64,000 nt of DNA, from positions 2,137,786 to 2,201,785 of the forward strand of contig NZ_JAFIDJ010000001.1 of the NCBI RefSeq assembly GCF_017051705.1, written 5' to 3'. A program made the position numbers and the translations under genes. This stretch comes from Algoriphagus lutimaris (lineage in GTDB: Bacteria; Bacteroidota; Bacteroidia; Cytophagales; Cyclobacteriaceae). Shown piece by piece: positions 22,878-54,908 of the stretch (positions are counted from its first letter, which is position 1; each line of letters begins with the position of its first letter). The notes under the pieces were generated by a model. That model saw only the letters and a program-made list of their open reading frames with translations, was not told the DNA's origin and did not search any database.

Positions 22878-22986
22878 TGCAAATAAAATTATCAACTCAT
22901 TTTATGTATCTTAATGTGTTTTATGGTTGAAAAATTATCTCAACAAATTCTTTATTTTTCAAACCATTCAACCTAATAATTCGCCT

Positions 22987-23406
22987 ATGAAAATCCTTTT
23001 CACGCTTGCACTTTTCTTGTATTCTAGTTTTGTTTTTGCGCAAACAGAACAAGAAATAGCCACAAAAGTAGAAGCCTTAAGACTAGCTCTCATAGATCCT
23101 ACCGAAGCGAGCTTAAAAGCGCTTAGTTCCGATAGACTGAGCTATGGACATTCTAATGGAAAAATCGAAAATAAAACTGAGTTTATAGAAGCCTTAGTCA
23201 GTGGTGTATCAGATTTTGCAACCGCTACTTTTAAAGATCAAACCATTCAGATTGAAAAAAATACGGCAATTGTAAGACATATACTGGCTGCTGATTTGGT
23301 AAATGGAGACCAAACCAACCACATAGAAATCGGAGTAATTATGTTCTGGCATAAAGAAAAAGGCCAGTGGAAATTGCGGGCCAGACAAGCATATAAATTA
23401 ACTTAA
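22987..23406 (+). CDS. Exported NTF2-like (DUF4440-type) protein
   Basis: A 139-residue protein: a clear signal peptide (KILFTLALFLYSSFVFAQ, cleaved before Gln-Thr) and a single NTF2/SnoaL-like domain. The pattern of an N-terminal helix, then LSSDRLSYGHSNGKIENKTEF and the final strands MFWHKEKGQWKLRARQAYKL, is usual for periplasmic DUF4440 proteins of Bacteroidota. Function unknown; such domains bind small ligands. A TTG at 22927 would put 20 extra residues before the signal peptide and is rejected. The stop lies 5 bases from the convergent BASS transporter stop. Confidence 0.85.
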   Translation: MKILFTLALFLYSSFVFAQTEQEIATKVEALRLALIDPTEASLKALSSDRLSYGHSNGKIENKTEFIEALVSGVSDFATATFKDQTIQIEKNTAIVRHILAADLVNGDQTNHIEIGVIMFWHKEKGQWKLRARQAYKLT

Positions 23407-23411
23407 GAAGT

Positions 23412-24506
23412 TTAGGTATAAGGACTTTCCTCTGGAATTGGTTTTTTGTGCCAATAGGACGCGAGGATGGAACCACTCACATTCATAAATGGCCCAAATA
23501 CCGCCGGAGCTAGGCCTACAGTGGCTATTTTCCCCATTTCTTTGGCAATTCCGGAAGCTAGTCCACCATTTTGCATTCCCACTTCAATAGCAATTGTTCT
23601 ACAATCTCGCTCGCTCAGCCTAAATAAACGGCTTGACCAATAACCCAATAGATATCCTGCAAGATTGTGGAATATGACCATAACAATAAGCATTGGCCCA
23701 ATATCCAACAAGCTATCTCGTCCAGCAGCCACAATAACAACTAAAATCAAAGCAATGGCAGCCATGGAAATAATTGGCATCAAATCATCCAGCCATTTGG
23801 ATTTACCTCGCAGAAAATAATTAAAGACCAGCCCTGCACCAATTGGGATAATCACCATTTTCACAATACTGAACATCATATCCACTACATCAATTGCTAC
23901 AAATTCTCCTGCCAGCCATCCCATGAGGAAGGGAGTTACAAATGGAGCTAATAGCGTAGTAATGGAAGTTACGGTGATCGAAAGTGCTAAATTAGCTTTC
24001 GCTAAAAAACTCATCACGTTTGAAGCCATACCACTAGGAGAACAGCCTATCAGAATCATCCCTGCTGCAATTTCTGGGGGGAACCCACTTAATTTAGCGA
24101 GTGTAAAGCCAATGAAAGGCATAATGGAAAATTGACATAATACCCCAATCAGTACTCCTTTAGGCATTTTTACGACTCCCAAAAAATCTTTAATACTCAT
24201 GGAAGTCCCCATACCAAACATTATTACTTGAATCAAGGGAACAATCAAGGCACTAAATTTAAAACCTTGGTACTCAAGGAAATATTGGGGAAAATAGAGT
24301 GCAAGCGCAACAGACCCAAAGATCATCATAGAATATGCATATCCCTTTAATTTTTCACTTCCCAAAAATGAAAGTGCACAAATAAAGAAAAAGCCAATCC
24401 ATAAAAAGCTTGCATATTCAATTCCTAGAAACAGGCTAGTTCCAACCGCTCCAACAAATAGCGCAATTGAAAGAATTGAAAGAGATTTTGTGATTCTTGG
24501 ATTCAA
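23412..24506 (-). CDS. BASS-family (bile acid:Na+ symporter type) transporter
   Basis: A 364-residue protein with about ten membrane segments. FGMGTSMSIKDF, LIGCSPSGMASNVMSFLAKA and AIEVGMQNGGLASGIA are the sodium-site and crossover motifs of the BASS/SBF family. Bacterial members move pyruvate, pantoate, keto acids or sterol acids; bile acids are not implied. It starts 93 bases after the last dehydratase gene on the same strand, so it may be the uptake step of that cluster, carrying a small keto acid. That role is inferred from position only. Confidence 0.88.
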   Translation of the reverse strand: MNPRITKSLSILSIALFVGAVGTSLFLGIEYASFLWIGFFFICALSFLGSEKLKGYAYSMMIFGSVALALYFPQYFLEYQGFKFSALIVPLIQVIMFGMGTSMSIKDFLGVVKMPKGVLIGVLCQFSIMPFIGFTLAKLSGFPPEIAAGMILIGCSPSGMASNVMSFLAKANLALSITVTSITTLLAPFVTPFLMGWLAGEFVAIDVVDMMFSIVKMVIIPIGAGLVFNYFLRGKSKWLDDLMPIISMAAIALILVVIVAAGRDSLLDIGPMLIVMVIFHNLAGYLLGYWSSRLFRLSERDCRTIAIEVGMQNGGLASGIAKEMGKIATVGLAPAVFGPFMNVSGSILASYWHKKPIPEESPYT

Positions 24507-24599: not shown

Positions 24600-26084
24600 T
24601 TAACTGTAAGTTCTATCATGAGAACGCTTATCGTTCCACATATCAGTGGGTGCAAAATATGACTTGTCTGAAGGGTGTAAGTGAGCTTTCACTACTTCCT
24701 CATTTAATTCAATCCCCAATCCAGGTGCTTCCAGAGGAACTGGCGCGTAACCTTTGTCAATTATTTTTCCTCCTCCGGTCATGGTGACCATATCTTCCCA
24801 CCAGGGAACATCTACCGAATGGTGTTCCAGAGCAAGGAAATTCTGTGTGGCAGCTGCACAGTGAACATTTGCCATAAAGGATACTGGGGTACCTGCCTGG
24901 TGCATGGCCATGGCAATTCCTTTTTCCTCGGCATAGTCGGCAATGCGTTTGGTCTCCAAAAGCCCCCCTGAAGAGGCCAAATCCGGATGCACGATATCCA
25001 CTGCATGATTATCAATTAAATCTTTGAAATACTGAAGTAGGTAAATATCCTCTCCCGTAGTAGTAGGAGTATTTAATGCAGTAGTAATGGTCTTATGTTG
25101 TTCCCACATTTGCCAGGGCACCATATCCTCAAGCCAGGCAAGTCTGTACTTATCCAATGCTTGCCCCAGTCTGATACAATTGTTCAAGTCAAAATGTCCA
25201 TAATGATCAGTAGAAAGTGGTATTTCATAACCTACCATTCCTCTGACGTGATCCACTATCTTGGCAAGTTCGTCCAAACCTTTTTCTGTTATTTGGACTC
25301 CAGTAAAAGGATGGGCGGTATTCGCATAGGACATATATCCTCCTTGCCACTGGCTTTTCCCTTGCTTGAAAATCTCAGGGTTGACAATACATCCTGGAAT
25401 ATCCATGATTTCACCAATGGAAACATCCATTTTTAGCCAAGTGTATCCTTGCTCCTCGGTTCTATATTTAATAAGTTTTAATTGCTCCTCTGGTGAACTT
25501 GCCTCAGGAGTATCCGCATACAACCTCACAGAATCTCTATACCTTCCTCCCAATAACTGCCAAGCTGGAACATTATAGGCTTTTCCGCAAAGGTCCCAAA
25601 GGGCCATTTCTACTCCACATACTCCTCCTGCTTGACGGGATTGCCCCCCAAATTGCTTGATGATTTTAAAAACCTTCTCCACATTACATGGGTTTTCTCC
25701 CAAAATCCTACTCTTAAGCATCAAGGCATATTTTGGGTCAGCGCCGTCTCTAACCTCCCCCAATCCATAGATTCCTTGGTTGGTATCTATTCTAAGAATA
25801 GCTGTACCTCCCATTACTGCAGTATGTGCATAACGCAAATCAGTAATTTTCAAATCTGAGGGAGAAGAAGCTCTACGCACATTTTTGGTTGTTTCTGCCA
25901 TGGTGTCTTCTATACTAAGTCCCATCAGTGCGGAAAGGCTCAGTCCTCCCAAAGCAGTCTTCTTCAAAAAATCTCTTCTGTTATCTTTTGTCAGAGGATT
26001 ATCAATTTCTGCTTGGCGTTGGGCAATATATTGCTGCTCTCTTATTTTGTTCTTTTCAATGAGTTCTTTTAGGGTATTTTTCAT
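24600..26084 (-). CDS. Tat-exported enolase-superfamily protein 1 (mandelate racemase/sugar-acid dehydratase type)
   Basis: A 494-residue protein. A charged 35-residue extension precedes the twin-arginine motif NRRDFLKK (Arg36-Arg37) and a hydrophobic stretch. The enolase N-terminal domain covers about 78-185 and the barrel follows. Lys218 (WLKMD), metal ligands Asp293 (STDHYGHF), Glu319 (WLEDMVP) and Glu345 (TGEDIY), and His395 (AMHQAG) fit a mandelate-racemase-type active site, so abstraction of an alpha proton from a carboxylate is expected, giving dehydration of a sugar acid. An insertion at about 225-265 is absent from the paralogue at 27212-28489. It is the last gene of two RraA/dehydratase pairs, 110 bases after the RraA gene. 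Substrate unknown. Confidence 0.9.
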   Translation of the reverse strand: MKNTLKELIEKNKIREQQYIAQRQAEIDNPLTKDNRRDFLKKTALGGLSLSALMGLSIEDTMAETTKNVRRASSPSDLKITDLRYAHTAVMGGTAILRIDTNQGIYGLGEVRDGADPKYALMLKSRILGENPCNVEKVFKIIKQFGGQSRQAGGVCGVEMALWDLCGKAYNVPAWQLLGGRYRDSVRLYADTPEASSPEEQLKLIKYRTEEQGYTWLKMDVSIGEIMDIPGCIVNPEIFKQGKSQWQGGYMSYANTAHPFTGVQITEKGLDELAKIVDHVRGMVGYEIPLSTDHYGHFDLNNCIRLGQALDKYRLAWLEDMVPWQMWEQHKTITTALNTPTTTGEDIYLLQYFKDLIDNHAVDIVHPDLASSGGLLETKRIADYAEEKGIAMAMHQAGTPVSFMANVHCAAATQNFLALEHHSVDVPWWEDMVTMTGGGKIIDKGYAPVPLEAPGLGIELNEEVVKAHLHPSDKSYFAPTDMWNDKRSHDRTYS

Positions 26085-26194
26085 GATATGCAGGGTTATT
26101 GTTAAATCAATATGATTGAAGGTCAGTTTATATTAACCGGCTAAAATAAGTCTGAGAAAGGCCTTTAGTCCTTGCCACATTAAAAATGAAGTGA

Positions 26195-27157
26195 TTAGTA
26201 ATTCCTCTCTTTTAGGTAATTATCTAATTCCTCTTTCGTCATAGGTAGTTTTCCAGGATAGTTATTCAACCAATCCAAAAAGTCTTTTTTGATTTCCTCT
26301 GTCCATTGGCTATCAATTTGTCCAGCAAGGTATTTCCCCTCCCGAAGCCTTTGATGACCAAACTCATCTCTTAGGCCAGTCACTTCGGAAGTCAAGACCA
26401 ATTCCTCCACCAAAAAGGCAGGTATAAAAATCACTCCATATTTTTTTGCCAACACCACATCACCGGGAAGCACGGTCGCACGCCCAATTCTAATGGGGGT
26501 ATTAATAGAGATAAGCATCATTTGTTGGATATAAGATGGATCCTGTCCTTTGATCCAAGCATTAAATCCTTCAATTTCAGAAAGGCCTTCCTGATCGCGA
26601 ACCGAACCATTGAATACCACACCTCTCTGAGATTTAGCAAAAATTGCATTTCCTAAATTATCCCCAATTAATGTACCGTCCGCAATTTTCCCATACCCAT
26701 CTGCCACATAAACATCCCCGTTCACGAGTACATCTATTGGCCAGGAATTGGTCCCTCCTTTTGGAGATCGGCCTTCTTTTTCCACTCCTTGATCTTTCAC
26801 TTGTTTTTCAAGATCAGGCCTGAGTGGCATGTATTGGGCAGTTACTACCCGGCCGGTCATCGCCTCGTCTGGCAGCATAATTTGCCAGTCACCTTCGTAT
26901 TGATTTTGAAATCCTTTGTTTCTCAAAACTCCCCAAGCCTCTTCAATCGAAATGTTTTTTAATCGTTCAAGTATAGAATCAGATACTTTAGGTCTTCCAT
27001 CAGGAAATCGCTCGCCCGTCCATTGAGAAGTTAAAGCTTTAATATACTCAGGGGAAGCACCAACATTTTGTGCAGTTGCTTTTCCTATCGGAAGCATCAT
27101 GATGCAAGAAAGCACTAAAGCAAAAGGATAGCTTTTTTGTAGAAATTTAAAATTCAT
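26195..27157 (-). CDS. Exported RraA-fold protein 1 (possible class II pyruvate aldolase type)
   Basis: A 320-residue protein with a Sec signal peptide (cleavage near Ala29). The core has the RraA/HMG-aldolase motif D-x20-R-D: Asp166 in IGDNLGNAI and Arg187-Asp188 in NGSVRD. Related enzymes (4-hydroxy-4-methyl-2-oxoglutarate aldolase) cleave or decarboxylate pyruvate-containing acids with a divalent metal; E. coli RraA instead inhibits RNase E, which is impossible outside the cytoplasm. An N-terminal block with WTGERFPDGRPKVSD and a C-terminal block ending in a helix are shared with the paralogue at 28516. Its gene is 54 bases after enolase-superfamily gene 2. Aldolase activity is an inference. 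Confidence 0.88.
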   Translation of the reverse strand: MNFKFLQKSYPFALVLSCIMMLPIGKATAQNVGASPEYIKALTSQWTGERFPDGRPKVSDSILERLKNISIEEAWGVLRNKGFQNQYEGDWQIMLPDEAMTGRVVTAQYMPLRPDLEKQVKDQGVEKEGRSPKGGTNSWPIDVLVNGDVYVADGYGKIADGTLIGDNLGNAIFAKSQRGVVFNGSVRDQEGLSEIEGFNAWIKGQDPSYIQQMMLISINTPIRIGRATVLPGDVVLAKKYGVIFIPAFLVEELVLTSEVTGLRDEFGHQRLREGKYLAGQIDSQWTEEIKKDFLDWLNNYPGKLPMTKEELDNYLKERNY

Positions 27158-27211
27158 TAGTCATTTTGGGTTACTGGTTAAAATTAAATGATGATGGAAA
27201 AGAGTTAGTGT

Positions 27212-28489
27212 CTACTCAAAAAAGGGAATACCGGGAACGGCATGTTTTTTCATACCTTCTTCATTGATCTCTACTCCAATGCCTGGTTTTTCAGAAAGCG
27301 TGATAAAGCTGTTTTCGGTTCTTGGTCCATCGTAGGTCACGATATCTTTCCAAAGATCATCCTTGTCCATGTAGATCTGCCATTCCATAATTTGAAAATT
27401 TGGAACTGAAGCACATACATGGCAGCTTGCCATCGCACCAAGAAATGAGGCAACCATATGGGGTGAAAAAGGCACATAATACAGATTAGCCAAATTTGCG
27501 ATGCGTTGGGCTTCTCCCAATCCTCCCGCCTTTTGCAAATCAGGCATGATGATATCCAGTGCTCCATCTGCCAATAGCTTGGTGAATCCATAAGCGAGAT
27601 AGATATTTTCTCCAGCGCAAATAGGAGTGCTGGTCTCTTGTGTAATGTGTTTATAAACCTCAGGATTATCTGCTGGAACTGGTTCTTCCAACCACATCAG
27701 GTTCAGAGGCTCATACATTTTAGCCATTTTCATCCCTGTGACTGCATCATACCTTCCATGCATGTCCACGCAAATATCAATGTTAGGACCTACTTCCTCC
27801 CTTACTGCTGCTATGGCATTGTACATTCGATCTATTTCGGCTGGGTTTGCAGTCCAATTGAATCGATCGTATTTATTCGGATCTCTACCATTATCAACAT
27901 CAAATTTCACTGCATTGTAACCCCGGGAAACGGCATCTCGAGCTGCTGCAGCATAGTCCTCTGGTGTTGGATTGGTTGAGGCATAAAGTGCAGTATCACA
28001 ATACACACGGATTTTATCCCGGAACTTCCCTCCTAACAGTTGGTAAACTGGAACATTAAAAACTTTACCTGTAATATCCCAAAGAGCTGTTTCAATTGCA
28101 GTAAGTACAGCGACAAAAACTCCTGATTGGGCTCCTCCAAAAAAAGAACCCTTTCGAAGTTGTTCAGCCAATCGGTTCGGATTTAAAGGATTTTGTCCTT
28201 TCAGTTGATTCCCTAACCTTTTGACTAAGTAATAAGTACCATGAATGGCATCAACCGCCTCACCACAGCCCCAAACATCTTGGTTGGTATATATTTTCAC
28301 ATAAACAGCACCACGGACAAATCCACATTTGACGTCAGTGATTTTTAAATCGGAGGGATTGGAATAATTATTTTGCTTGTGGACTGCTGCTTGCAAGCCT
28401 TGGCCAAAATTGGTCAATAAGCCAGCACCAGTTAATCCAAGAGCAGCACCTTTTTGAAGGAAGGATCTACGTGATTTTTTGTTATTCAT
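27212..28489 (-). CDS. Tat-exported enolase-superfamily protein 2 (galactonate-dehydratase-like)
   Basis: A 425-residue protein. The Tat signal SRRSFLQKG (Arg7-Arg8) leads into a Gly/Leu hydrophobic stretch. Active-site residues: Lys195 (AVKFDVDN), Asp242 with His244 (CVDMHGRYD), Glu268 (WLEEPVP), Glu294 (AGENIY) and His344 (FSPHM). This is the arrangement of D-galactonate/mannonate-type dehydratases, which make 2-keto-3-deoxy sugar acids. The ATG at 28489 was chosen over an upstream TTG (28510), which would place seven residues before the Tat motif and crowd the preceding stop. It starts 26 bases after RraA-fold gene 2 and is clearly in the same operon. Substrate unassigned. Confidence 0.9.
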   Translation of the reverse strand: MNNKKSRRSFLQKGAALGLTGAGLLTNFGQGLQAAVHKQNNYSNPSDLKITDVKCGFVRGAVYVKIYTNQDVWGCGEAVDAIHGTYYLVKRLGNQLKGQNPLNPNRLAEQLRKGSFFGGAQSGVFVAVLTAIETALWDITGKVFNVPVYQLLGGKFRDKIRVYCDTALYASTNPTPEDYAAAARDAVSRGYNAVKFDVDNGRDPNKYDRFNWTANPAEIDRMYNAIAAVREEVGPNIDICVDMHGRYDAVTGMKMAKMYEPLNLMWLEEPVPADNPEVYKHITQETSTPICAGENIYLAYGFTKLLADGALDIIMPDLQKAGGLGEAQRIANLANLYYVPFSPHMVASFLGAMASCHVCASVPNFQIMEWQIYMDKDDLWKDIVTYDGPRTENSFITLSEKPGIGVEINEEGMKKHAVPGIPFFE

Positions 28490-28515
28490 GATTGAAATTG
28501 ATTTTAACAATTAGG

Positions 28516-29454
28516 TTACCAGGTTCTTTTCTTTAGGATTTCTTGTATCTGTTCTCTGGCGATCGGCAATTCATCGATATGGTCATTTAACCATTGTGAA
28601 AAGTCTTTTTCAATCTCATCAGACCATCTAGTATCTATTTGACCAGCTGTGTATTTACCTTCTCTAAGCCGCTGATGACCAAACATATCCCTCAGTCGAA
28701 CTACCTCTGAGGTCACCACTACTTTTTCGGCCAAATGTGCAGGAATAAAAGAAACTCCTCCATCTCTTCCCAACACAACATCTCCAGCCATTACTGTTAC
28801 TTGGTGAATTCTGGTTGGCTTGTTGATACCGATCAGCATGGTATTTAAGTCTCCTGGCTGATTGTGATGGGATGGGTGATAACTGGAAACATAAGATGTA
28901 AAAGAACCTATTTCCTTTAATCCTACTATATCTCTGATTGCTCCATCATATACAATCCCGTTTCCGGACTTGGCATAAATAGCATTTCCAACATTATCTC
29001 CGATGGTAGGGCCTCCATTATGAATACCAAACTGATCTACTACATATACATCACCTGGAACCAATAGATCCACTGGCCATGAATTCTGACCACGTTTCCC
29101 TTCATTCTTTCCACGCTCATCAATCGCATCATGAATATCGGGTCGCCCAGGCATAAAAGTGGCTGTCAAAGCCCTTCCAACCAAAACACTATCTGGATTA
29201 ATCATTAATCCCCAACCATCTGCATATTGATATCTGTAACCTTCGTTCTTCATCACAGCCCAAGCTTCGTCATGGGTAACTTGTTTCATTCTTCTTAAAA
29301 TATCATCGGATACTTTTGGTCGACCATCCTCAAATCGTTCTCCTGTCCACTTTTGAGTCAGAAAGAGCATCTCTTCTTTTGATATCTGTTGAGCGAATAC
29401 TCCCGAAACAATAAGTAAGAGTAAGGCAAGGGTGAGTGAGATTTTTTTGATCAT
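28516..29454 (-). CDS. Exported RraA-fold protein 2 (possible class II pyruvate aldolase type)
   Basis: A 312-residue paralogue of the protein at 26195-27157. Sec signal IKKISLTLALLLLIVSGVFA, then the shared block WTGERFEDGRPKVSDD, and the motif D-x20-R-D with Asp153 (IGDNVGNAI) and Arg174-Asp175. The C-terminal half carries the same RLRDMFGHQRLREGKYTAG segment. The ATG at 29454 gives a normal signal peptide; an upstream GTG-like extension to 29523 would bury it. It is the first gene of the RraA-dehydratase-RraA-dehydratase array and probably carries the promoter upstream, though no exact -7 box was found. Confidence 0.88.
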   Translation of the reverse strand: MIKKISLTLALLLLIVSGVFAQQISKEEMLFLTQKWTGERFEDGRPKVSDDILRRMKQVTHDEAWAVMKNEGYRYQYADGWGLMINPDSVLVGRALTATFMPGRPDIHDAIDERGKNEGKRGQNSWPVDLLVPGDVYVVDQFGIHNGGPTIGDNVGNAIYAKSGNGIVYDGAIRDIVGLKEIGSFTSYVSSYHPSHHNQPGDLNTMLIGINKPTRIHQVTVMAGDVVLGRDGGVSFIPAHLAEKVVVTSEVVRLRDMFGHQRLREGKYTAGQIDTRWSDEIEKDFSQWLNDHIDELPIAREQIQEILKKRTW

Positions 29455-29522
29455 AATTCGAAATGATTTAAATAAAACGGGACTCAGTAAATCCCAAGCT
29501 CCGATTATAATTATTTGTCCCA

Positions 29523-29684
29523 CTATACCTTGATAGCAAGATTATCCGGTCCTTGAGATGATATTGCAGCATTTACATTTTCTGAATTTACTGAAATTTC
29601 AGAATTAGGGTATGTCAATCGATTAATAATATCCACTTCTTTTCCAGGGAAAGGATTGGAATCCAAATTTGGGAAGCCTAATTC
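29523..29684 (-). pseudogene. 3' remnant of an unidentified gene in the 29455-29989 gap
   Basis: On the minus strand 53 codons are open before a TAG at 29523, with no start codon fit for a gene. The peptide ends in ISSQGPDNLAIKV and contains SNPFPGKEVDIINRL. It reads like a genuine protein C-terminus, but I do not recognise the family. Upstream to 29989 the DNA has stops in all frames and no feature. The likeliest reading is the end of a gene lost ahead of the RraA cluster; a chance ORF remains possible. Confidence 0.3.
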
Positions 29685-29989
29685 TCAGAGATTTGTAAGT
29701 ACCTCAGAACCATTTAGAAATGAAAGAAGAATACTCGAACGATTCAGGGTTTATGATATCCACCTATTTCTATAACATGATTACATTCTTCGCAACAAAA
29801 TTGAGTTTCACAGATTTGAAAAGTTGATTTGCTGGCAAATGCTTCGTCAAATCAGGTTATGTGTAGAAGGAAGTGATATTCCCATAAAACTGGAAACCTG
29901 GACATAATTCAGATAATTAAAATATTTTTAAAAATAATCTCACCCTACCTTATCGGGATTCTTGAAAGAGCCAAAAGCAAATATTAAAA

Positions 29990-31129
29990 TCAGCCCAATA
30001 TCCCTGCAATAAAAAATCCGGCATAAGTCCCAACCGCATTTCCCAAACTTCCCACCAAAATTCCTGGGATTAATAGGTCAGGTCTATTCAAACTTTCAGC
30101 CGCCGCTAGAGCAGTGGTATTGCCTCCCACATTTGCTTGGGAAGCAACAGTCACCACATCCCAATCAATCTTTAATATGCCTCCCAAACCATAAATCACT
30201 ACCCCATGAACTAGCATCAAAATACTTACAAAAAGAATGAAAGTTCCTGCAAGGTCACCTATTCCAGAAAGTGTTTTAAAATCACATAGTGTCCCGATCA
30301 CTCCTAGAAACAATAAGATTAAAAAGAAACCAATGGTATGAGTGCCCTGAATCCTTTGAATGAAAGGGAATTGGGCTAAAATTAAAGCCAGAGTCGTCAG
30401 AGTAATAATTTCGGGAATTACTGGAAAGTAAAAACTTAAGAGCTTAGAGAAGGCCATTGCCAAGAAGGACAAACCAAAAATTGCCGCCAAAGCTCCTATT
30501 GAGATGGATTCATGGGTTTTTATTTTCCCCACCTCTCCACTAGGAGGCATTATTTTTTTTCTCGGAAAAAGTTTTTGAAGATAGCGAGGCAAAAGTAAGG
30601 TAATTACAATCCAAGGTGTACCTATTAAATTATCTACTACTGTCGTAGCTGCAAACAAATCAGCATGCTCATTTACCTCATAGGCAAGAGCCACTGCATT
30701 AAAATTGATACTCCCTCCAATATAAGTTCCCGTGTACATTCCTGCAATAGCATTGGCCAAAGGTCCTATTTCCGTCTCTGGTCGAACTAAAAACCAAGCC
30801 ACCAACACTCCAATAATAGTCCCCAAAGCCCCAATTCCAAACATTAATAAAATGGGAAACCCTGCCTTTTTCACACTTTTCAAATCCACATCCAATAAGG
30901 CAATAAAAATACCCATGGGTGCCAGATACAAAAATACGCTATTATAAATAGGGTGACCCGAAGTGGCAGTGGGGATAATGCCAGAATTGGCAAAAACAGC
31001 ACAGATTAAAATTACCAAAATTGGAGTTCCTATGGTTCTCCCGACTTTATTTTTAGCTAACCAAACAGAAAGTAAAACAGCTATGCATAGCATTCCACTC
31101 ACATAGATTGGATCTTCGGTAAATGTCAT
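29990..31129 (-). CDS. DUF819 family membrane transporter-like protein
   Basis: A 379-residue integral membrane protein with ten or more hydrophobic segments. Recognised as DUF819 (YjcL-like) by the blocks LAPMGIFIALLDVDLKSV, AGMYTGTYIGGSINFNAVA and the C-terminal VASQANVGGNTTALAAAESL. The family is thought to transport small molecules; no substrate is established to my knowledge. It lies upstream of the RraA/dehydratase cluster on the same strand but is separated from it by more than 500 bases of decayed DNA, so a common transcript is doubtful. Confidence 0.85.
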   Translation of the reverse strand: MTFTEDPIYVSGMLCIAVLLSVWLAKNKVGRTIGTPILVILICAVFANSGIIPTATSGHPIYNSVFLYLAPMGIFIALLDVDLKSVKKAGFPILLMFGIGALGTIIGVLVAWFLVRPETEIGPLANAIAGMYTGTYIGGSINFNAVALAYEVNEHADLFAATTVVDNLIGTPWIVITLLLPRYLQKLFPRKKIMPPSGEVGKIKTHESISIGALAAIFGLSFLAMAFSKLLSFYFPVIPEIITLTTLALILAQFPFIQRIQGTHTIGFFLILLFLGVIGTLCDFKTLSGIGDLAGTFILFVSILMLVHGVVIYGLGGILKIDWDVVTVASQANVGGNTTALAAAESLNRPDLLIPGILVGSLGNAVGTYAGFFIAGILG

Positions 31130-47774: not shown

Positions 47775-50700
47775 TTGAACTTTCGGAAGTTACTGACTTT
47801 TTGCAGGAGGAGGTATTTCGGTGGTTTGCCCAAATACTTCATCCTGTTTGGGTTTATTCTGGCCTTTTCTACTTCCCAGGCTCAACAAACCGTATCCGAT
47901 AGCCTCCAAACGCGAATCGATTCTCTTAATTATAGGAGAATGGCTCCCTCATTTTTGCTTTGGCAAAACATGAGAACGAGTCCTCTATACCCCTACCGAA
48001 ATCCTTTTTTAAGACCTGAATCACCTTTTTTACCTGCTCCACTTACTAATCAAAATGTTCAGGTTTTAGTAGACTCTACCTTGAGATATAATATTGTGGA
48101 AGAACTCGACAGCACTAGGGTAGGAAATGAACAAGAATATGATTTTGATGAATTTTCGAAAATTCAAGAATATAAAGTAAGACAAGATTATTGGAGAAGC
48201 AGATCTAGAGGTGGAGATGGAGAAAGTGCTGTGGAAGGCCGTGGGTTAATCCCTCCATTGACTGTCAGTCCTTCATTTGACAGAATTTTTGGAGGAAGTG
48301 AAATCAACATTGTTCCAACAGGATATGTCAATTTAGACTTTGGTGCAATTTTTAGAAGGATAGACAACCCTACTCTTCCGATCAGACAGCAGCAAAATGG
48401 AGGATTTAATTTTGATCAACAGATCCAAATGGCTGTCAACGGATCTCTCGGAGAAAAAATGAAAATCGGGGCCAACTTCGATTCTAATAATTCCTTTGAC
48501 TTCCAAAATCAATTGAAGTTAGAGTATGCAGGCTTCCAAGAAGACATTATAAAATCAATTGAAATAGGTAATGTGAGCATGCCAGTTCAGAACCGGTTGA
48601 TTCAAGGGGCTCAAAACTTATTTGGTGTCAAAACTCAAATGCAATTTGGGAAACTTGGTGTCACAGCTGTTGCCTCCACCCAACGGGGAAGAAGAGACCA
48701 GTTAATCATTGATGCAAATGGACAAGGAAGGTCTTTTGATATTCAGGCCTCTAAATATGATGAAAACAGGCACTTTTTCTTAGCTCATTTCTTTAGAGAT
48801 AATTATGAAAGATGGCTTCGAGGACTTCCCCAAGTACTTTCTGGCGTAAATGTAACCAGAATTGAAGTCTACATTATGAACAGGGCTTCCAATACAGAAA
48901 CGTTAAGAAATTTTGCAGCATTCATGGATTTGGGGGAGGGACAAACCTTATTAAATCCATCCAATCCTGCCATTGGACCTGGAACTCCTGGCGCTCCTGC
49001 CGGTAATGGATCCAATAATCTTTTCAACAATATATCTAATAACCCTGCCTTCAGACCATTTGACACAGGTGCTCGGGCCATGGAGTCAAGCCTAAATATT
49101 AAAAAAGGGGTTGACTTTGAACAGATCAATGGATCTAGAAAACTAAGTCCTACTGAATTTTATTTTAACCCACAATTGGGATACCTCTCACTTTTCAGAA
49201 AACTTCAAAACGATGAAGTACTGGCCGTTTCTTATGAATATACTTACAATGGTCAGGTGTATAAGGTCGGCGAATTGACAGAGGACTATCAAAATCGTCA
49301 AGAAGATGAATTGATTTTTCTAAAACTTTTACGACCAGCTAGAATCAATCCTCGGGTTCCATCTTGGGATTTGATGATGAAAAACGTCTATAACTTAAAT
49401 GCGAATCAACTTTTAAGAGATGGTTTCCAGCTTCAGGTGATTTACCGTGACGATAGGACTGGTTTAGACAACCCTTCTCTTCTGGAGGGAGAAAATGTAA
49501 AAGACGTTCCTTTGATCAAGCTAACAGGCTTGGACAATTTAAACCCTCAAAATGACCCAGCTCCAGATGGAAATTTTGACTTTGTAGAAGGGCTAACCAT
49601 TCTTCCAGATCGAGGCTTACTTGTATTTCCGGTTCTAGAACCTTTCGGTTCCAACCTTGAGAAATATTTTCTGGATACAGAAATAGTACTCAAAGATAAA
49701 TATGTCTATGACACCTTGTATCAGACTACTCAAGCTGATGCAGAATTAGTGACCAGACTTAATAAATATTTTATCAAAGGACGCTTAACGGCGGGCTCTG
49801 CTTCGGAGATCCAACTTCCTGGGTTAAATATTTCTCCAGGCTCTGTGATCGTTCAGGCTGGAAATATCCCCTTGACGGAAGGGGTAGATTTTACGGTAGA
49901 TTACAATGTTGGTCGTGTAGTGATTATCAATGACGCCATTTTACAATCAGGAAAGCAAATATCCATCAGTTTTGAAAAGGCAGATTTGGTATCCTTTCAG
50001 ACTCGTAGTCTATTGGGGACCCGATTGGACTATGTATTCAGTGACAAATTCAATTTAGGAGGTACCTTCCTGTATTTAAATGAACGACCCAATGTTACTA
50101 GAATTGCCACTGGAAATGAAACCTTAAGGAATAGCTTATGGGGCTTAGATGCAAGATTTTCGGATGAATCCCGTTGGCTTACTAAAATGGCAGACGCCCT
50201 TCCTTTTACAGATACCAAAGAGACTTCGTTAGTCAATTTTAGTGGCGAATTTGCCCATTTAATCCCTGGAACTTCCAACCAAGTAGATGGAGACCAGGCC
50301 TCTTACATAGATGACTTTGAAGCAGCAGTCACCCCATTTAATCTTGGGGGTGCGGCAAACCAAAACTGGAAATTAGCCTCAACCCCACAAACCGATGACA
50401 ATCGATTTGACTTGAGCAATCAAACAGAAGATTTATTAGGGTCAACCTATAGAAGGGCCCGACTTGCTTGGTATAATATTGATAACATCTTCTATAGGGA
50501 AAGTGGTCCCGGAGTACCTTCCAACATATCAAGGGAAGATCGACGAAATCACTACGTTCGCCGGGTTGTACCGCAAGAGATTTTCCCTCAGCAAGACAGA
50601 ACGGTAATTATTACCCCTGAGCCTTTATTTGAACTGGCTTATTTTCCTAGTGAGCGAGGGATGTATAATTATAATCCCAACTTGACTTTTGATGGGTTAC

Positions 50701-53700
50701 TTCCAAACCCTGAGAAAAATTATGGTGGGGTAACCCGAGCAATTACCACAGAGGTAGACTTTGACCGAACCAATATAGAATACATTGAATTCTGGATGCT
50801 AGACCCATTCATTGAAGGAGAAAATGGTCGAGTGTTAGATGGAATATTCAATGAAAACAACACCACAGGCGGAAAGCTATTTCTGAATTTAGGCGACATT
50901 TCTGAAGATGTGATGAAAGACGGTCGTCATGCCTTTGAAAATGGACTTCCAGCAGACGGAGACCCTTCCAAAACTTCCTCCAATGAATGGGGGCGAATCA
51001 CCAGGGAACAATACCTTCTTCCTGCATTTGACAACTCAGAATCTTCTAGGGAAAATCAAGATGTGGGATTGGACGGTCTGAAAAACTCAGATGAGGCAGG
51101 ATTTTTCCAGTCTAGATTTTTAGATCGTTTGAGTATATCCCAAGAGGCTAGAAATAGAATTAATCAAGATGTTTCCGCAGATTTATTCCAATACTATCTG
51201 GACGAACAATTTGACCAGAACAATGTCAAAATTCTAGAACGGTATAAGAAGTTTAATGGATTGGAAGGAAATACTCCAGTTACTGCCAGCCAAAATCTTC
51301 CCTACACCCCATCCGGTTCCAATACCCCTGATAATGAAGATTTAAATACCGACAATACTATCAATGAACTCGAAAACTATTACGAATACGAAATTGACTT
51401 AAGACCAGGAAACTTGGTGGTAGGGCAAAATTATATCGTGGATAAGGTGACTCATAATGAGGCAGGTGAGAACGTTAATTGGTATTTATTTAGAATTCCA
51501 GTAAGACAACCTGATCGAGTTCAAGGAGATATTAATGGCTTTAAATCCATTCGTTGGATGAGAACCTATTTGACGGAATTTGAGCAACCGGTCGTATTGA
51601 GAATGGCTAATTTCCGAATGATTGGTAGTCAATGGAGGGTATTCCAAGAGTCCCTTTTCGAAAGAGGTCTTTTCGAAATACCTGAGCCAGATGTATCCAA
51701 TGTGACAGTCGATGTGGTAGGTATTGAGGAAAATAGCCAAGGAAGTGCCACACAAAGCCCTTATGTATTACCTCCGGGAATCAATAGAGATAGGGATAAT
51801 ACCTCTACAGTAGAAAGAAGGTTGAACGAGCAGTCTTTAAGAATATGTGTTGAAGACTTGCCTGCAAAAGATGCCAGAGCAGTTTTCAGAAACATAACAC
51901 AGGATTTGGTTCAATTTGAAAGAATCAAAATGTTCTTCCATGCTGATAGTGAAGATGCATTGGATGGAGAATTCACCGGTTTCTTAAGACTTGGAACAGA
52001 CTACACCGACAACTATTATGAAATAGAAGTTCCTCTAACCATTACACCTAAAGGAACGAGAGACCCTCGACAAATTTGGCCATTAGAAAATGAAATAGAC
52101 ATTGCCATTCAGGATATTGTTGGGGCTAAAGTCGAAAGGGATAATAGTCAATCCCCTTTAAACATTCCATATACTATTCAAGTAAATCAGTACAAAGTAA
52201 CCGTAGTGGGTAGGCCTGAATTAAGTTTGATTCAAGGTATGATGATTGGGGTCAGAAATCCAGGTGAATCGGGGGGAGCAAGTAAGAGTATTTGTGTTTG
52301 GGCCAATGAACTTCGGGTGACCGGATTCACAAAATCAAATGGGTGGGCGGCAAATGCTTTATTGAATGCAAAGATTGCAGATGTCGCAGTGGTTTCAGCT
52401 TCTATTAGACACAATTCTATAGGGTTTGGAGGTTTGGAAACCAGACTTTCTGAAAGATCAAGACAATCCACTACTCAGTATGATATTTCTACCAATATAG
52501 ATGTACATAAACTACTTCCTTCTCAATTGGGCGTGAGTATCCCAATGTATTTTAGTGTAGAAAATTCATCTACTAGACCAGAATATGATCCTTTAAATCC
52601 TGACGTTCCTTTTGAAGTGGCATTAGGTAAATTTGAAACTGATGCAGAACGAGATGCATACCGAGGAATCGCACTTGACCAGTTAAATAGGAAAAATATT
52701 AGCTTTAATAATGTCCGAAAAATCAAAACCAATCCTGAATCTGTAAGTAGGTTCTATGACCTGAGTAATTTCTCATTTTCTTATGCTTACGGAACTGTAA
52801 AACAAACCAATGCCCAAATTCAGGATTATACCTTTAAGACTTATAAAGGCAATATTACTTATAGTTTTCAGCCTAAGCCACTGGTGATTGAGCCATTTAA
52901 AAACAGCACCTGGCTTGATTCCCCACACTTAAGGTTAATTAAGGACTTTAACTTTAATTTGGCCCCTACCCTTGTTCTGGCGAGGTTAGATATCGACCGA
53001 AGATTCCTAAGATCTCAATATAGAAACGATCAATTAAGTACCTCTGGAGTGGATCCGCTTTTCCAAAAAAGCTATTTCATGAATCGCTTCTACACGGTCA
53101 ACTGGGATCTTACTAGAAACCTGAGGGTAGATTATTCTGCCAGAGTCATGGCCGTGATCGATGAACCGGAAGGTGACCTAGATTCAGAAGCAAAGCAGGA
53201 TTCTGTAAAAAGTAATTTCTGGAGATTTGGTAGAAGAACTAATTACAATCAAACCATAAACCTGAATTATACCATACCTTTTGACAAGTCTCCAATTTTG
53301 GATTGGATAAGAGCTGATTACAAATACACAGCTAATTATACCTGGCAGACCGGCGCCATAGGTCAAAAAGATACACTGGGAAATGTTATTCAAAATACCA
53401 GGGATCAATCCATCAATGGTAAGCTAGACTTGATAAAGCTTTACAACAAGAATAAAAAGCTAGCTGCTCTGAATGCTCCTAAACGTCCAACAATTCCAGG
53501 AAGGAACTCTGTAGGAGCGGAAGATACCATCGGAACACCATTTAGTAATAAGGTCCTCAAATTTTTGATGATGGTGAAGGAAATCACTTTTAATTACGGG
53601 GTGATACAAGGCACTTTCTTACCAGGTTATTTACCAAATACGGGATTATTGGGAATGGACCGAGCTTTTGAAAATCCAGGACTGGCTTTCCTTTTTGGTA

Positions 53701-54908
53701 GTCAAGATCCTGCTATTCGTTACAGATTAGCAAGTGCAGGCTATATAGCTCCAAGTTCGGAACTCACCCAACCATTCTCTCAAAACCGAGCTATGAATTT
53801 AAGGCTGGGTAGTTTAATTGAACCGTTCCAGGATTTTAGGATCACTTTGACAGCCACTAAACGAGAAACAGGTAACTATCAAGAGATATTTAGAAATTCT
53901 ACAGATGACCCAGGAGAATACATTTCAATTAGTCCAAACCGATTAGGTTCTTACAGTATTACCACCATCATGCTTGGAACAGCATTTTCGAGAGACGACT
54001 TTGAAAACAACTCCCCACTTTTCACAGATTTTGAAAAAAATCGAGACATTGTAAAAAGTAGGTTAGATAGCGAAAACGCATCCGGAGGAGAATATTCCAT
54101 CAATGGGCAAGATGTATTAATCCCATCCTTTTTAGCTGCCTATCGAGGAAAGAATGCCTCTGATATGAAATTGAACCCTTTCCCAAAAACTCCACTGCCA
54201 AACTGGAGACTTGAATACAGAGGGCTTTCCAGACTCAAGGGATTAAGTGAAATATTTAGCAGCATCAATATTTTACATGGCTACACCTCTACTTATGATG
54301 CCAGCAATTTCTCCAACTCCCTGCAATACCAAGAGGGATTAGAGCTTTATAATAACTTACAAAAAATACCGAGACCAGATGTAACCAATGATGAAGGTCA
54401 GTTTATACCTATTTATGTGTTAAATCAGGTGGTCATGGCTGAACGTTTTTCACCGTTGATCGGGGTAGACTTGTTGACTAAGGACCGATTGAATATTGCT
54501 ATCCAGTACAATAAAGAAAGAAGTTTGGGACTAAACTTTTCAAACGCCCAAGTGACGGAGCAGCGCAGCAATGATTTTGGAATAAATATAGGATATACCA
54601 AAGCAGGAGTAAAAATCCCTTTCAAAATTCAAGGTCAGCAGAAAATACTTAAAAATGATTTAACCTTCAGGTTGGATACCAAGGTGGTAGATACTCGACA
54701 AGTTCAGAGGAAAATCGAAGAAGGAAGCACTATTACCAATGGCAATTTGAATATACAGATCAGGCCGACCATAGGATATTTGATCAATCAGAACCTAAGC
54801 GTGACTCTTTATTTTGATAGAACAATTAATGACCCAAGGGTTACTACTGCCTATAGAAGATCTTCTACAGCATTTGGAGGACAATTACGATTTAATTTGT
54901 CACAATAG
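47775..54908 (+). CDS. sprA: SprA, outer-membrane translocon of the type IX secretion system
   Basis: A 2377-residue protein, usual SprA/Sov size, forming the 36-strand outer-membrane pore of the type IX secretion system. Recognised by its length, the RQDYWRSRSRGG region, ESPFLPAPL near the start, and the beta-rich body ending in LRFNLSQ. The signal peptide PKYFILFGFILAFSTSQAQQ ends near residue 38. No ATG precedes residue 56, so the start is TTG: 47775, or 47826, which gives a compact signal peptide and has AGGAGGAGG (47805-47813) 12 bases before it. Position after ruvA and before gcvH is the conserved order. Confidence 0.96.
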   Translation: MNFRKLLTFCRRRYFGGLPKYFILFGFILAFSTSQAQQTVSDSLQTRIDSLNYRRMAPSFLLWQNMRTSPLYPYRNPFLRPESPFLPAPLTNQNVQVLVDSTLRYNIVEELDSTRVGNEQEYDFDEFSKIQEYKVRQDYWRSRSRGGDGESAVEGRGLIPPLTVSPSFDRIFGGSEINIVPTGYVNLDFGAIFRRIDNPTLPIRQQQNGGFNFDQQIQMAVNGSLGEKMKIGANFDSNNSFDFQNQLKLEYAGFQEDIIKSIEIGNVSMPVQNRLIQGAQNLFGVKTQMQFGKLGVTAVASTQRGRRDQLIIDANGQGRSFDIQASKYDENRHFFLAHFFRDNYERWLRGLPQVLSGVNVTRIEVYIMNRASNTETLRNFAAFMDLGEGQTLLNPSNPAIGPGTPGAPAGNGSNNLFNNISNNPAFRPFDTGARAMESSLNIKKGVDFEQINGSRKLSPTEFYFNPQLGYLSLFRKLQNDEVLAVSYEYTYNGQVYKVGELTEDYQNRQEDELIFLKLLRPARINPRVPSWDLMMKNVYNLNANQLLRDGFQLQVIYRDDRTGLDNPSLLEGENVKDVPLIKLTGLDNLNPQNDPAPDGNFDFVEGLTILPDRGLLVFPVLEPFGSNLEKYFLDTEIVLKDKYVYDTLYQTTQADAELVTRLNKYFIKGRLTAGSASEIQLPGLNISPGSVIVQAGNIPLTEGVDFTVDYNVGRVVIINDAILQSGKQISISFEKADLVSFQTRSLLGTRLDYVFSDKFNLGGTFLYLNERPNVTRIATGNETLRNSLWGLDARFSDESRWLTKMADALPFTDTKETSLVNFSGEFAHLIPGTSNQVDGDQASYIDDFEAAVTPFNLGGAANQNWKLASTPQTDDNRFDLSNQTEDLLGSTYRRARLAWYNIDNIFYRESGPGVPSNISREDRRNHYVRRVVPQEIFPQQDRTVIITPEPLFELAYFPSERGMYNYNPNLTFDGLLPNPEKNYGGVTRAITTEVDFDRTNIEYIEFWMLDPFIEGENGRVLDGIFNENNTTGGKLFLNLGDISEDVMKDGRHAFENGLPADGDPSKTSSNEWGRITREQYLLPAFDNSESSRENQDVGLDGLKNSDEAGFFQSRFLDRLSISQEARNRINQDVSADLFQYYLDEQFDQNNVKILERYKKFNGLEGNTPVTASQNLPYTPSGSNTPDNEDLNTDNTINELENYYEYEIDLRPGNLVVGQNYIVDKVTHNEAGENVNWYLFRIPVRQPDRVQGDINGFKSIRWMRTYLTEFEQPVVLRMANFRMIGSQWRVFQESLFERGLFEIPEPDVSNVTVDVVGIEENSQGSATQSPYVLPPGINRDRDNTSTVERRLNEQSLRICVEDLPAKDARAVFRNITQDLVQFERIKMFFHADSEDALDGEFTGFLRLGTDYTDNYYEIEVPLTITPKGTRDPRQIWPLENEIDIAIQDIVGAKVERDNSQSPLNIPYTIQVNQYKVTVVGRPELSLIQGMMIGVRNPGESGGASKSICVWANELRVTGFTKSNGWAANALLNAKIADVAVVSASIRHNSIGFGGLETRLSERSRQSTTQYDISTNIDVHKLLPSQLGVSIPMYFSVENSSTRPEYDPLNPDVPFEVALGKFETDAERDAYRGIALDQLNRKNISFNNVRKIKTNPESVSRFYDLSNFSFSYAYGTVKQTNAQIQDYTFKTYKGNITYSFQPKPLVIEPFKNSTWLDSPHLRLIKDFNFNLAPTLVLARLDIDRRFLRSQYRNDQLSTSGVDPLFQKSYFMNRFYTVNWDLTRNLRVDYSARVMAVIDEPEGDLDSEAKQDSVKSNFWRFGRRTNYNQTINLNYTIPFDKSPILDWIRADYKYTANYTWQTGAIGQKDTLGNVIQNTRDQSINGKLDLIKLYNKNKKLAALNAPKRPTIPGRNSVGAEDTIGTPFSNKVLKFLMMVKEITFNYGVIQGTFLPGYLPNTGLLGMDRAFENPGLAFLFGSQDPAIRYRLASAGYIAPSSELTQPFSQNRAMNLRLGSLIEPFQDFRITLTATKRETGNYQEIFRNSTDDPGEYISISPNRLGSYSITTIMLGTAFSRDDFENNSPLFTDFEKNRDIVKSRLDSENASGGEYSINGQDVLIPSFLAAYRGKNASDMKLNPFPKTPLPNWRLEYRGLSRLKGLSEIFSSINILHGYTSTYDASNFSNSLQYQEGLELYNNLQKIPRPDVTNDEGQFIPIYVLNQVVMAERFSPLIGVDLLTKDRLNIAIQYNKERSLGLNFSNAQVTEQRSNDFGINIGYTKAGVKIPFKIQGQQKILKNDLTFRLDTKVVDTRQVQRKIEEGSTITNGNLNIQIRPTIGYLINQNLSVTLYFDRTINDPRVTTAYRRSSTAFGGQLRFNLSQ

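Follow-up and report, generated by a model that had tools for sequence, protein, structure and literature searches.

Paired RraA-like and enolase superfamily proteins with predicted export signals form a candidate sugar-acid catabolic module of Bacteroidota

The dehydration and cleavage of sugar acids are usually placed in the cytoplasm. A run of genes at positions 24600 to 29454 of a 64,000-nucleotide stretch of the Algoriphagus lutimaris genome (the whole of which is here termed the window) raises the question of what two RraA-like proteins and two enolase superfamily proteins of the mandelate racemase (MR) type might accomplish together outside that compartment, as all four carry N-terminal export motifs. 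The genes are transcribed from the minus strand in the order RraA1 (28516 to 29454; 312 amino acids), MRA (27212 to 28489; 425 amino acids), RraA2 (26195 to 27157; 320 amino acids), and MRB (24600 to 26084; 494 amino acids), followed by a gene for a BASS/PanS-type inner membrane transporter (23412 to 24506, minus strand), which is the last of the run. The alternation of the four enzyme genes, with intergenic gaps of 26, 54, and 110 bases, had been described in a first-pass annotation, and the same coordinates and gaps were recovered here. On balance, we lean towards the view that the run represents a Bacteroidota module for the catabolism of sugar acids by two pairs of exported enzymes, in which MRA would dehydrate the acid, RraA1 would most likely cleave the product, and BASS would import the resulting keto acid.

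Family assignment is straightforward at the level of the fold. Both RraA proteins exceed the Pfam cut-off of 24.5 bits for PF03737 (53.2 bits for RraA1 and 60.7 bits for RraA2), and the two MR proteins match MR_MLE_C with 209.8 and 153.4 bits against a cut-off of 29.4, while the transporter matches PF01758 with 141 bits and is also matched by TIGR00841 and NF047939, both under cut-off. A search of the whole genome returned five MR_MLE_C matches and no RraA-like genes other than these two. At the level of function, both MR proteins score under every NCBIfam equivalog cut-off compared, the best model for each being galactonate dehydratase (NF010624; MRA 249.7 bits and MRB 170.1 bits, with a cut-off of 311).

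The pairing of the two protein types is more than a chance arrangement. When one genome was scanned for each species, relatives of the RraA pair numbered 506; the analysis used the best 80 loci among them (designated by L numbers), all from Bacteroidota as judged by record titles. MRA was located within 500 bp of RraA1 in 77 of the 80 loci, and all three misses occur at contig ends: in L019 and L081 the contig end cuts an MRA fragment beside RraA1, and in L034 the contig stops 157 bases past RraA1. MRB was located within 500 bp of RraA2 in all 51 loci bearing RraA2. Five matches below 200 bits had been removed before counting (one RraA-like, in L047, and four MR-like, in L019, L081, L035, and L042), among them the contig-end fragment of L019. 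RraA fragments shorter than 250 amino acids and MR fragments shorter than 380 amino acids were excluded from the trees, and the MRA fragment of L081 was therefore scored as a miss. The trees separate RraA1 (82 sequences) from RraA2 (52 sequences) and MRA (85 sequences) from MRB (57 sequences), the window proteins included. The “duplicated” pathway of the first-pass annotation is thus a misleading description, because each of the four proteins sits in an ortholog clade of its own; identities of 49% between RraA1 and RraA2 and of 32% between MRA and MRB likewise speak against simple duplication. The trees exclude a recent tandem duplication and indicate that RraA1 with MRA and RraA2 with MRB constitute two old orthologous pairs. 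Furthermore, across the 55 loci with full flanks, the five core genes adopt 16 arrangements of order, strand, and gene content (MRA being on the strand opposite to RraA1 in two of these loci), yet adjacency is kept, and the pairing therefore outlives rearrangement. Additional copies were also encountered: in seven loci (L012, L013, L018, L020, L028, L051, and L058), RraA1 and MRA have another gene of the MRA type between them, and L014, L027, L033, and L038 each carry two or three MRB-type genes, one of which lies upstream of SusC.

The genome survey of RraA-MR adjacency proposed as a check in the first-pass annotation was carried out on 394 evenly sampled Bacteroidota genomes, that of A. lutimaris included, at thresholds of E ≤ 1e-40 for RraA and E ≤ 1e-60 for MR; absences in this sample are soft, since only four to five first-look candidates were scored per genome. 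RraA was represented by 38 matches in 24 genomes. The MR matches comprised a high-scoring, exported-type group (33 matches of 282 to 696 bits, of which the two lowest are cut at contig ends, distributed over 20 genomes) and a low-scoring group (29 matches of 207 to 269 bits in 24 genomes). Exported-type MR and RraA occurred together in 20 genomes, RraA without such an MR in 4, the MR without RraA in none, and neither in 370. An exported-type MR was found within 500 bp of 28 of the 38 RraA genes and within 3 kb of 30; conversely, 27 of the 33 exported-type MR genes had an RraA gene within 500 bp and 31 had one within 3 kb. None of the 29 low-group MR genes was within 500 bp of RraA, and two were within 10 kb. 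A Fisher test of the pairing gave 5e-30, a value that overstates independence because the sampled genomes share ancestry. In-frame stops were noted in three unpaired MR matches (L168, L173, and G237:C8:165240-166385).

The export motifs, too, are widely conserved. The N-termini of RraA1 and RraA2 are hydrophobic, of the Sec type, and end in A-Q, and the window MR proteins bear the twin-arginine translocation (Tat) motifs SRRSFL and NRRDFL, so that the Sec and Tat signals reported earlier for the four proteins were found again and proved to be shared by their relatives. Among the 80 loci, RRxF[LIVMF] occurs within the first 90 residues of all 141 MR proteins, and a simple window score detects a strongly hydrophobic N-terminal stretch in 129 of the 131 RraA proteins with a readable start, the remaining two falling just below the threshold. 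In the even sample, the comparison covered 20 of the 33 high-group MR proteins (one of them the window's own) and 10 of the 29 low-group proteins: the twin arginine was present in 19 of the former, the one exception, L165, being unreadable, versus none of the latter, which are unpaired. In MRB, the twin arginine occupies residues 36 and 37, behind a long n-region of 35 residues that is predicted to be mostly helical.

Conserved residues suggest what the MR proteins may do. Both possess the Pfam domains and the three acidic ligands by which MR/MLE members of the enolase superfamily are recognized; the ligands, already reported as complete in both proteins, are D242, E268, and E294 in MRA and D293, E319, and E345 in MRB, and the D/E/E acids are present in all 142 aligned MR sequences. 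MRA, in addition, displays the layout of galactonate-type acid-sugar dehydratases, in which we take the D-x-H and Asp-His dyad residues to have roles: D242, H244 (the D-x-H histidine), E268, E294, the dyad D317/H344, K195, and D197 are kept in 85 of 85 sequences. MRB departs from this layout. It retains the metal acids and the dyad, whereas a D293-H-[YF]-G-H motif replaces D-x-H-G-R, and MRA and MRB are accordingly predicted, from these aligned residues, to have different active sites. The AlphaFold model of MRB (predicted local distance difference test [pLDDT] score, 82.4) has PDB entry 2qq6 as its best match, with mannonate and gluconate dehydratases further down the list. The two window proteins thus share fold and metal ligands with the galactonate, gluconate, and mannonate dehydratases, and MRA also shares the D-x-H motif with them, but they differ in carrying a Tat motif and, in the case of MRB, in D-H-[YF]-G-H.

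The corresponding evidence for RraA concerns an enolate site. The D-x20-R-D motif, which we take to be that of RraA-fold class II pyruvate aldolases, had been recognized in both copies and is indeed present in each (D153/R174-D175 in RraA1 and D166/R187-D188 in RraA2). In RraA1 numbering, G152, R174, D175, E250, and D256 are conserved in 134 of 134 RraA sequences, and D153 is kept in 120 of 134 (81 of 82 RraA1 and 39 of 52 RraA2); RraA2 proteins with Ser at this position occur in L045 to L049, L052, L053, L056, L057, L060, L063, L083, and L086. Most homologs of the HMG/CHA aldolase are reported to carry one of two motifs, and in that enzyme R123 stabilizes the pyruvate enolate, with D124 and E199 acting as metal-site acids (PMC5065237). 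G152, R174, and D175 align with its G101, R123, and D124, and the window proteins thereby carry the Gly/Arg/Asp signature of its pyruvate and metal site. The AlphaFold model of RraA1 (pLDDT, 86.5) matches PDB entries 3k4i and 5x15, with the HMG/CHA aldolase (3noj) at rank 8 and 17% identical in the fold match. This class II pyruvate aldolase thus shares its fold and the Gly/Arg/Asp residues with the RraA proteins and differs in that its substrate derives from an aromatic pathway. We know of no export signal in the HMG/CHA aldolase. No covariation was seen between the Asp/Ser site of RraA2 and the Tyr/Phe site of MRB when this was looked for.

The genes surrounding the pairs in relatives point, in some loci, toward sugar acids. 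In the 55 full-flank loci, SusC was found in 46, SusD in 41, and BASS in 41; over all 80 loci the counts were 51 for SusC, 47 for SusD, 54 for BASS (always within 8 kb of RraA1), 30 for DUF4440, and 29 for FecR, and two extracytoplasmic function (ECF) sigma factor clusters jointly cover 30. Less common neighbor clusters, named from one representative each, comprise a pyrroloquinoline quinone (PQQ) dehydrogenase with a cytochrome domain (9 of 80 loci), FAH (9), SMP-30/gluconolactonase (7), aldehyde dehydrogenase (6), GntP (6), FGGY kinase (6), IlvD/Edd (5), glycoside hydrolase family 43 (GH43; 5), and esterases (12). The IlvD/Edd protein is close to L-arabinonate dehydratase (853 of 882 bits, under the cut-off). 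In individual gene runs, a 2-keto-3-deoxygluconate (KDG) kinase-like gene and Eda directly follow BASS (L060 and L063), GarL/HpaI-like, GarR, and glucarate dehydratase-like genes occur together (L035 and L042), L-fucose dehydrogenase accompanies a fuconolactonase-like gene (L044 and L048), and the mannonate dehydratase UxuA is present (L066 and L072), with a galactonate transporter-like gene in L066. NCBIfam cut-offs were passed for Eda, GarR, L-fucose dehydrogenase, UxuA, and a gntP subfamily and failed for KDG kinase, GarL/HpaI, glucarate dehydratase, fuconolactonase, aldehyde dehydrogenase, the galactonate transporter, and L-arabinonate dehydratase. The modules of many relatives thus have SusC, SusD, ECF sigma, and FecR in common with the SusC/SusD uptake loci of Bacteroidota, from which they differ in the accompanying dehydratase and RraA-fold enzymes and in the rarity of glycoside hydrolases nearby.

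In the window itself, no intact adjacent SusC and SusD genes lie beside the enzymes. Algoriphagus relatives such as L008 possess the intact order ECF sigma, FecR, SusC, SusD, RraA1, and tblastn and blastn comparisons with intact relatives reduce the window counterpart of that importer and regulator module to a 414-bp scar (29514 to 29927, minus strand) with five in-frame stops. Its pieces are in the right order on the minus strand, comprising an ECF sigma tail (29838 to 29927; 30 codons, one stop), a SusC tail (29725 to 29853; 43 codons, two stops), and a SusD C-terminus (29514 to 29747; 78 codons, two stops); no FecR match was found within the 414 bp. Divergence from L008 at first and second codon positions is 0.23 and 0.15 for the SusD piece and 0.12 and 0.09 for the SusC piece, compared with 0.09 and 0.03 (SusD) and 0.02 and 0.00 (SusC) between two intact relatives, and with 0.05 to 0.06 and 0.00 to 0.05 for three of the window enzyme genes. 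For the sigma piece, divergence does not exceed that among intact sigma tails, and because of this overlap the piece is uninformative on decay. SusD relatives elsewhere in the genome are distant (32%, 30%, and weaker). The four enzyme genes and BASS, however, are open, with nonsynonymous divergence (dN) of 0.02 to 0.11 and a synonymous proportion of differences (pS) of 0.69 to 0.85 against three relatives, and the enzymes therefore appear to have kept a use after the importer decayed. Their retention agrees with a small substrate that could pass through porins, and a recent loss of function in this strain is conceivable. The run is flanked by a DUF819 membrane protein gene (29990 to 31129, minus strand), which was rejected as a core part, as DUF819 was matched in 8 of 80 loci, and by a convergent gene (22927 to 23406, plus strand) whose small DUF4440 product begins with a signal-like stretch. 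Farther along the window, a 2,377-codon open reading frame occupies positions 47775 to 54908 of the plus strand.

The order and pairing of the genes, the export motifs and conserved ligands of their products, occasional sugar-acid neighbors, and importer decay in A. lutimaris are observed at these loci; from them we infer the chemistry, substrates, location, and transport of the following pathway. A small sugar acid, either an aldonate or an aldarate, would enter the periplasm, in many relatives probably via SusC/SusD. The Tat-exported MRA would abstract the alpha proton and remove the beta hydroxyl, thus producing a 2-keto-3-deoxy acid, which the Sec-exported RraA would then convert by way of a pyruvate-type enolate bound to metal, the most likely products being pyruvate and an aldehyde. 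The resulting keto acid would then cross the inner membrane through BASS. MRB and RraA2, by means of the altered MRB site, may perform the same kind of task, either for another acid or for an intermediate further along the pathway. A complete nonphosphorylating periplasmic pathway, with PQQ-type oxidation in some species, Tat-dependent dehydration, cleavage by RraA, sodium symport of pyruvate by BASS, and a second pair of the D-H-[YF]-G-H type for a further acid, is a more tentative proposition, and we doubt that it holds in full.

Several findings weigh against the proposed module. To our knowledge, activity is known for none of its members, and export is predicted from motifs and a simple hydrophobicity score. 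In all 57 MRB sequences the D-x-H histidine is absent, Tyr (44 sequences) or Phe (13 sequences) standing in its place; 13 of 52 RraA2 sequences have Ser instead of the leading Asp of D-x20-R-D, and the equivalent of Glu199 is not firmly placed in what is a loose alignment, with the conserved E250 and D256 nearby. Of the 38 sampled RraA genes, ten lack an exported-type MR at a distance of up to 500 bp, and eight of these lack one up to 3 kb away. Sugar-acid neighbors occur in a minority of the 80 loci, most of which show none, and those present point to several different sugar acids rather than to one. As to the aldolase step, a simple aldolase function of RraA is called into question most strongly by the loci with KDG kinase and Eda and by the example of FlDet, an RraA family protein of the alginate pathway of Flavobacterium sp. 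UMI-01, which is reported to be a keto-deoxy-glucarate (KDGR) dehydratase/decarboxylase (PMC8563752). FlDet resembles the window proteins as an RraA family member in a sugar-acid pathway of Bacteroidota and indicates that the family need not consist of aldolases; it differs in its dehydratase/decarboxylase activity, and the terms “periplasm” and “signal peptide” have no occurrences in the text of that paper (PMC8563752). The exported sugar-acid pathway of the first-pass annotation therefore stands in its export motifs, its conserved pairing, and the gene context of some relatives and is weakened in its aldolase step and in the notion of simple duplication. Release of pyruvate by RraA, which was part of that proposal, is predicted from the retained enolate-site residues, and the assignment of RraA as a pyruvate aldolase is tentative in view of FlDet and the KDG kinase and Eda loci.

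FlDet also provides the chief precedent for a rival in which the exported pathway is the same and RraA acts as a keto-acid dehydratase/decarboxylase, with alpha-ketoglutaric semialdehyde or a similar product being taken up and oxidized inside. FAH family and aldehyde dehydrogenase genes near some loci are in keeping with this, models of the alpha-ketoglutaric semialdehyde type being the weak best matches of the latter; however, the substrate of FlDet is a six-carbon diacid, the two clusters are present in only 9 and 6 of the 80 loci, respectively, and the neighboring aldehyde dehydrogenase falls far under the NCBIfam cut-offs. We consider this reading unlikely, though worthy of attention. The KDG kinase-like and Eda genes straight after BASS in L060 and L063 suggest that KDG reaches the cytoplasm uncleaved in bacteria with these loci and thus speak for a pair that dehydrates and isomerizes without cleavage, BASS importing a 2-keto-3-deoxy acid to be phosphorylated and cleaved inside and RraA serving as a tautomerase or as a lactone or anomer helper. 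As that kinase-aldolase pair was found in only 2 of 80 loci within the stretch examined, and RraA retains residues tied to enolate chemistry, this is rather improbable as a general account. Substrates in which the sugar acid is still part of an oligosaccharide or glycoside imported by SusC/SusD would explain the SusC/SusD linkage and the GH43 and esterase clusters near some modules, but SusC was not found in 9 of the 55 full-flank loci within the stretch examined, and in A. lutimaris the importer has decayed while the enzymes remain open (an importer elsewhere in all these genomes being conceivable), which makes such substrates quite improbable. Chance adjacency, or an RNase E regulator, is finally the reading that the name of the Pfam family and low-scoring matches between RraA2 and RNase regulator models might suggest. 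The export signals, the pairing counts, and scores far below the model cut-offs contradict both parts of that reading (for the equivalog NF006875, RraA2 reaches 33 bits versus 136, and RraA1 is not among the matches), and it was rejected as highly improbable.

Partial counterparts exist outside the exported set. Plasmid p2 of Rhizobium sp. NLR16a encodes an adjacent MR and RraA behind a sugar ABC importer, with two more MR genes near; the adjacency is common to both systems, but these proteins, which are 24 to 28% identical to those of the window, have no evident N-terminal signal and lie by an ABC importer rather than being of the export type. In Paracoccaceae La 6, RraA lies behind genes annotated as L-arabonate dehydratase, DapA family protein, and aldehyde dehydrogenase. 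Of the four plasmid locations inspected, these two included, one carried no annotation and another contained no sugar-acid genes; all matches of the plasmid search were below 60% identity. Both folds, the idea of sugar-acid dehydratases, and a signal-less MR-RraA pair, that of Rhizobium, are therefore already known. Among the papers listed in searches of a mainly open-access literature without preprints, none was found to describe an exported RraA-MR pair, nor the twice-paired form, exported and often linked to SusC/SusD, that has the MRB site.

Were the exported sugar-acid module borne out, part of a carbon catabolism that is usually cytoplasmic would take place in the periplasm of a major polymer-degrading bacterial group. 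A function would be provided for two protein groups that bear general or misleading names (“RraA family” and “mandelate racemase”), with sugar acids as a testable substrate class, and BASS transporters would be tied to the uptake of keto acids. MRB-type proteins would represent a subgroup of the enolase superfamily with an active site of its own, and it is very unlikely that the RraA proteins described here are RNase regulators.

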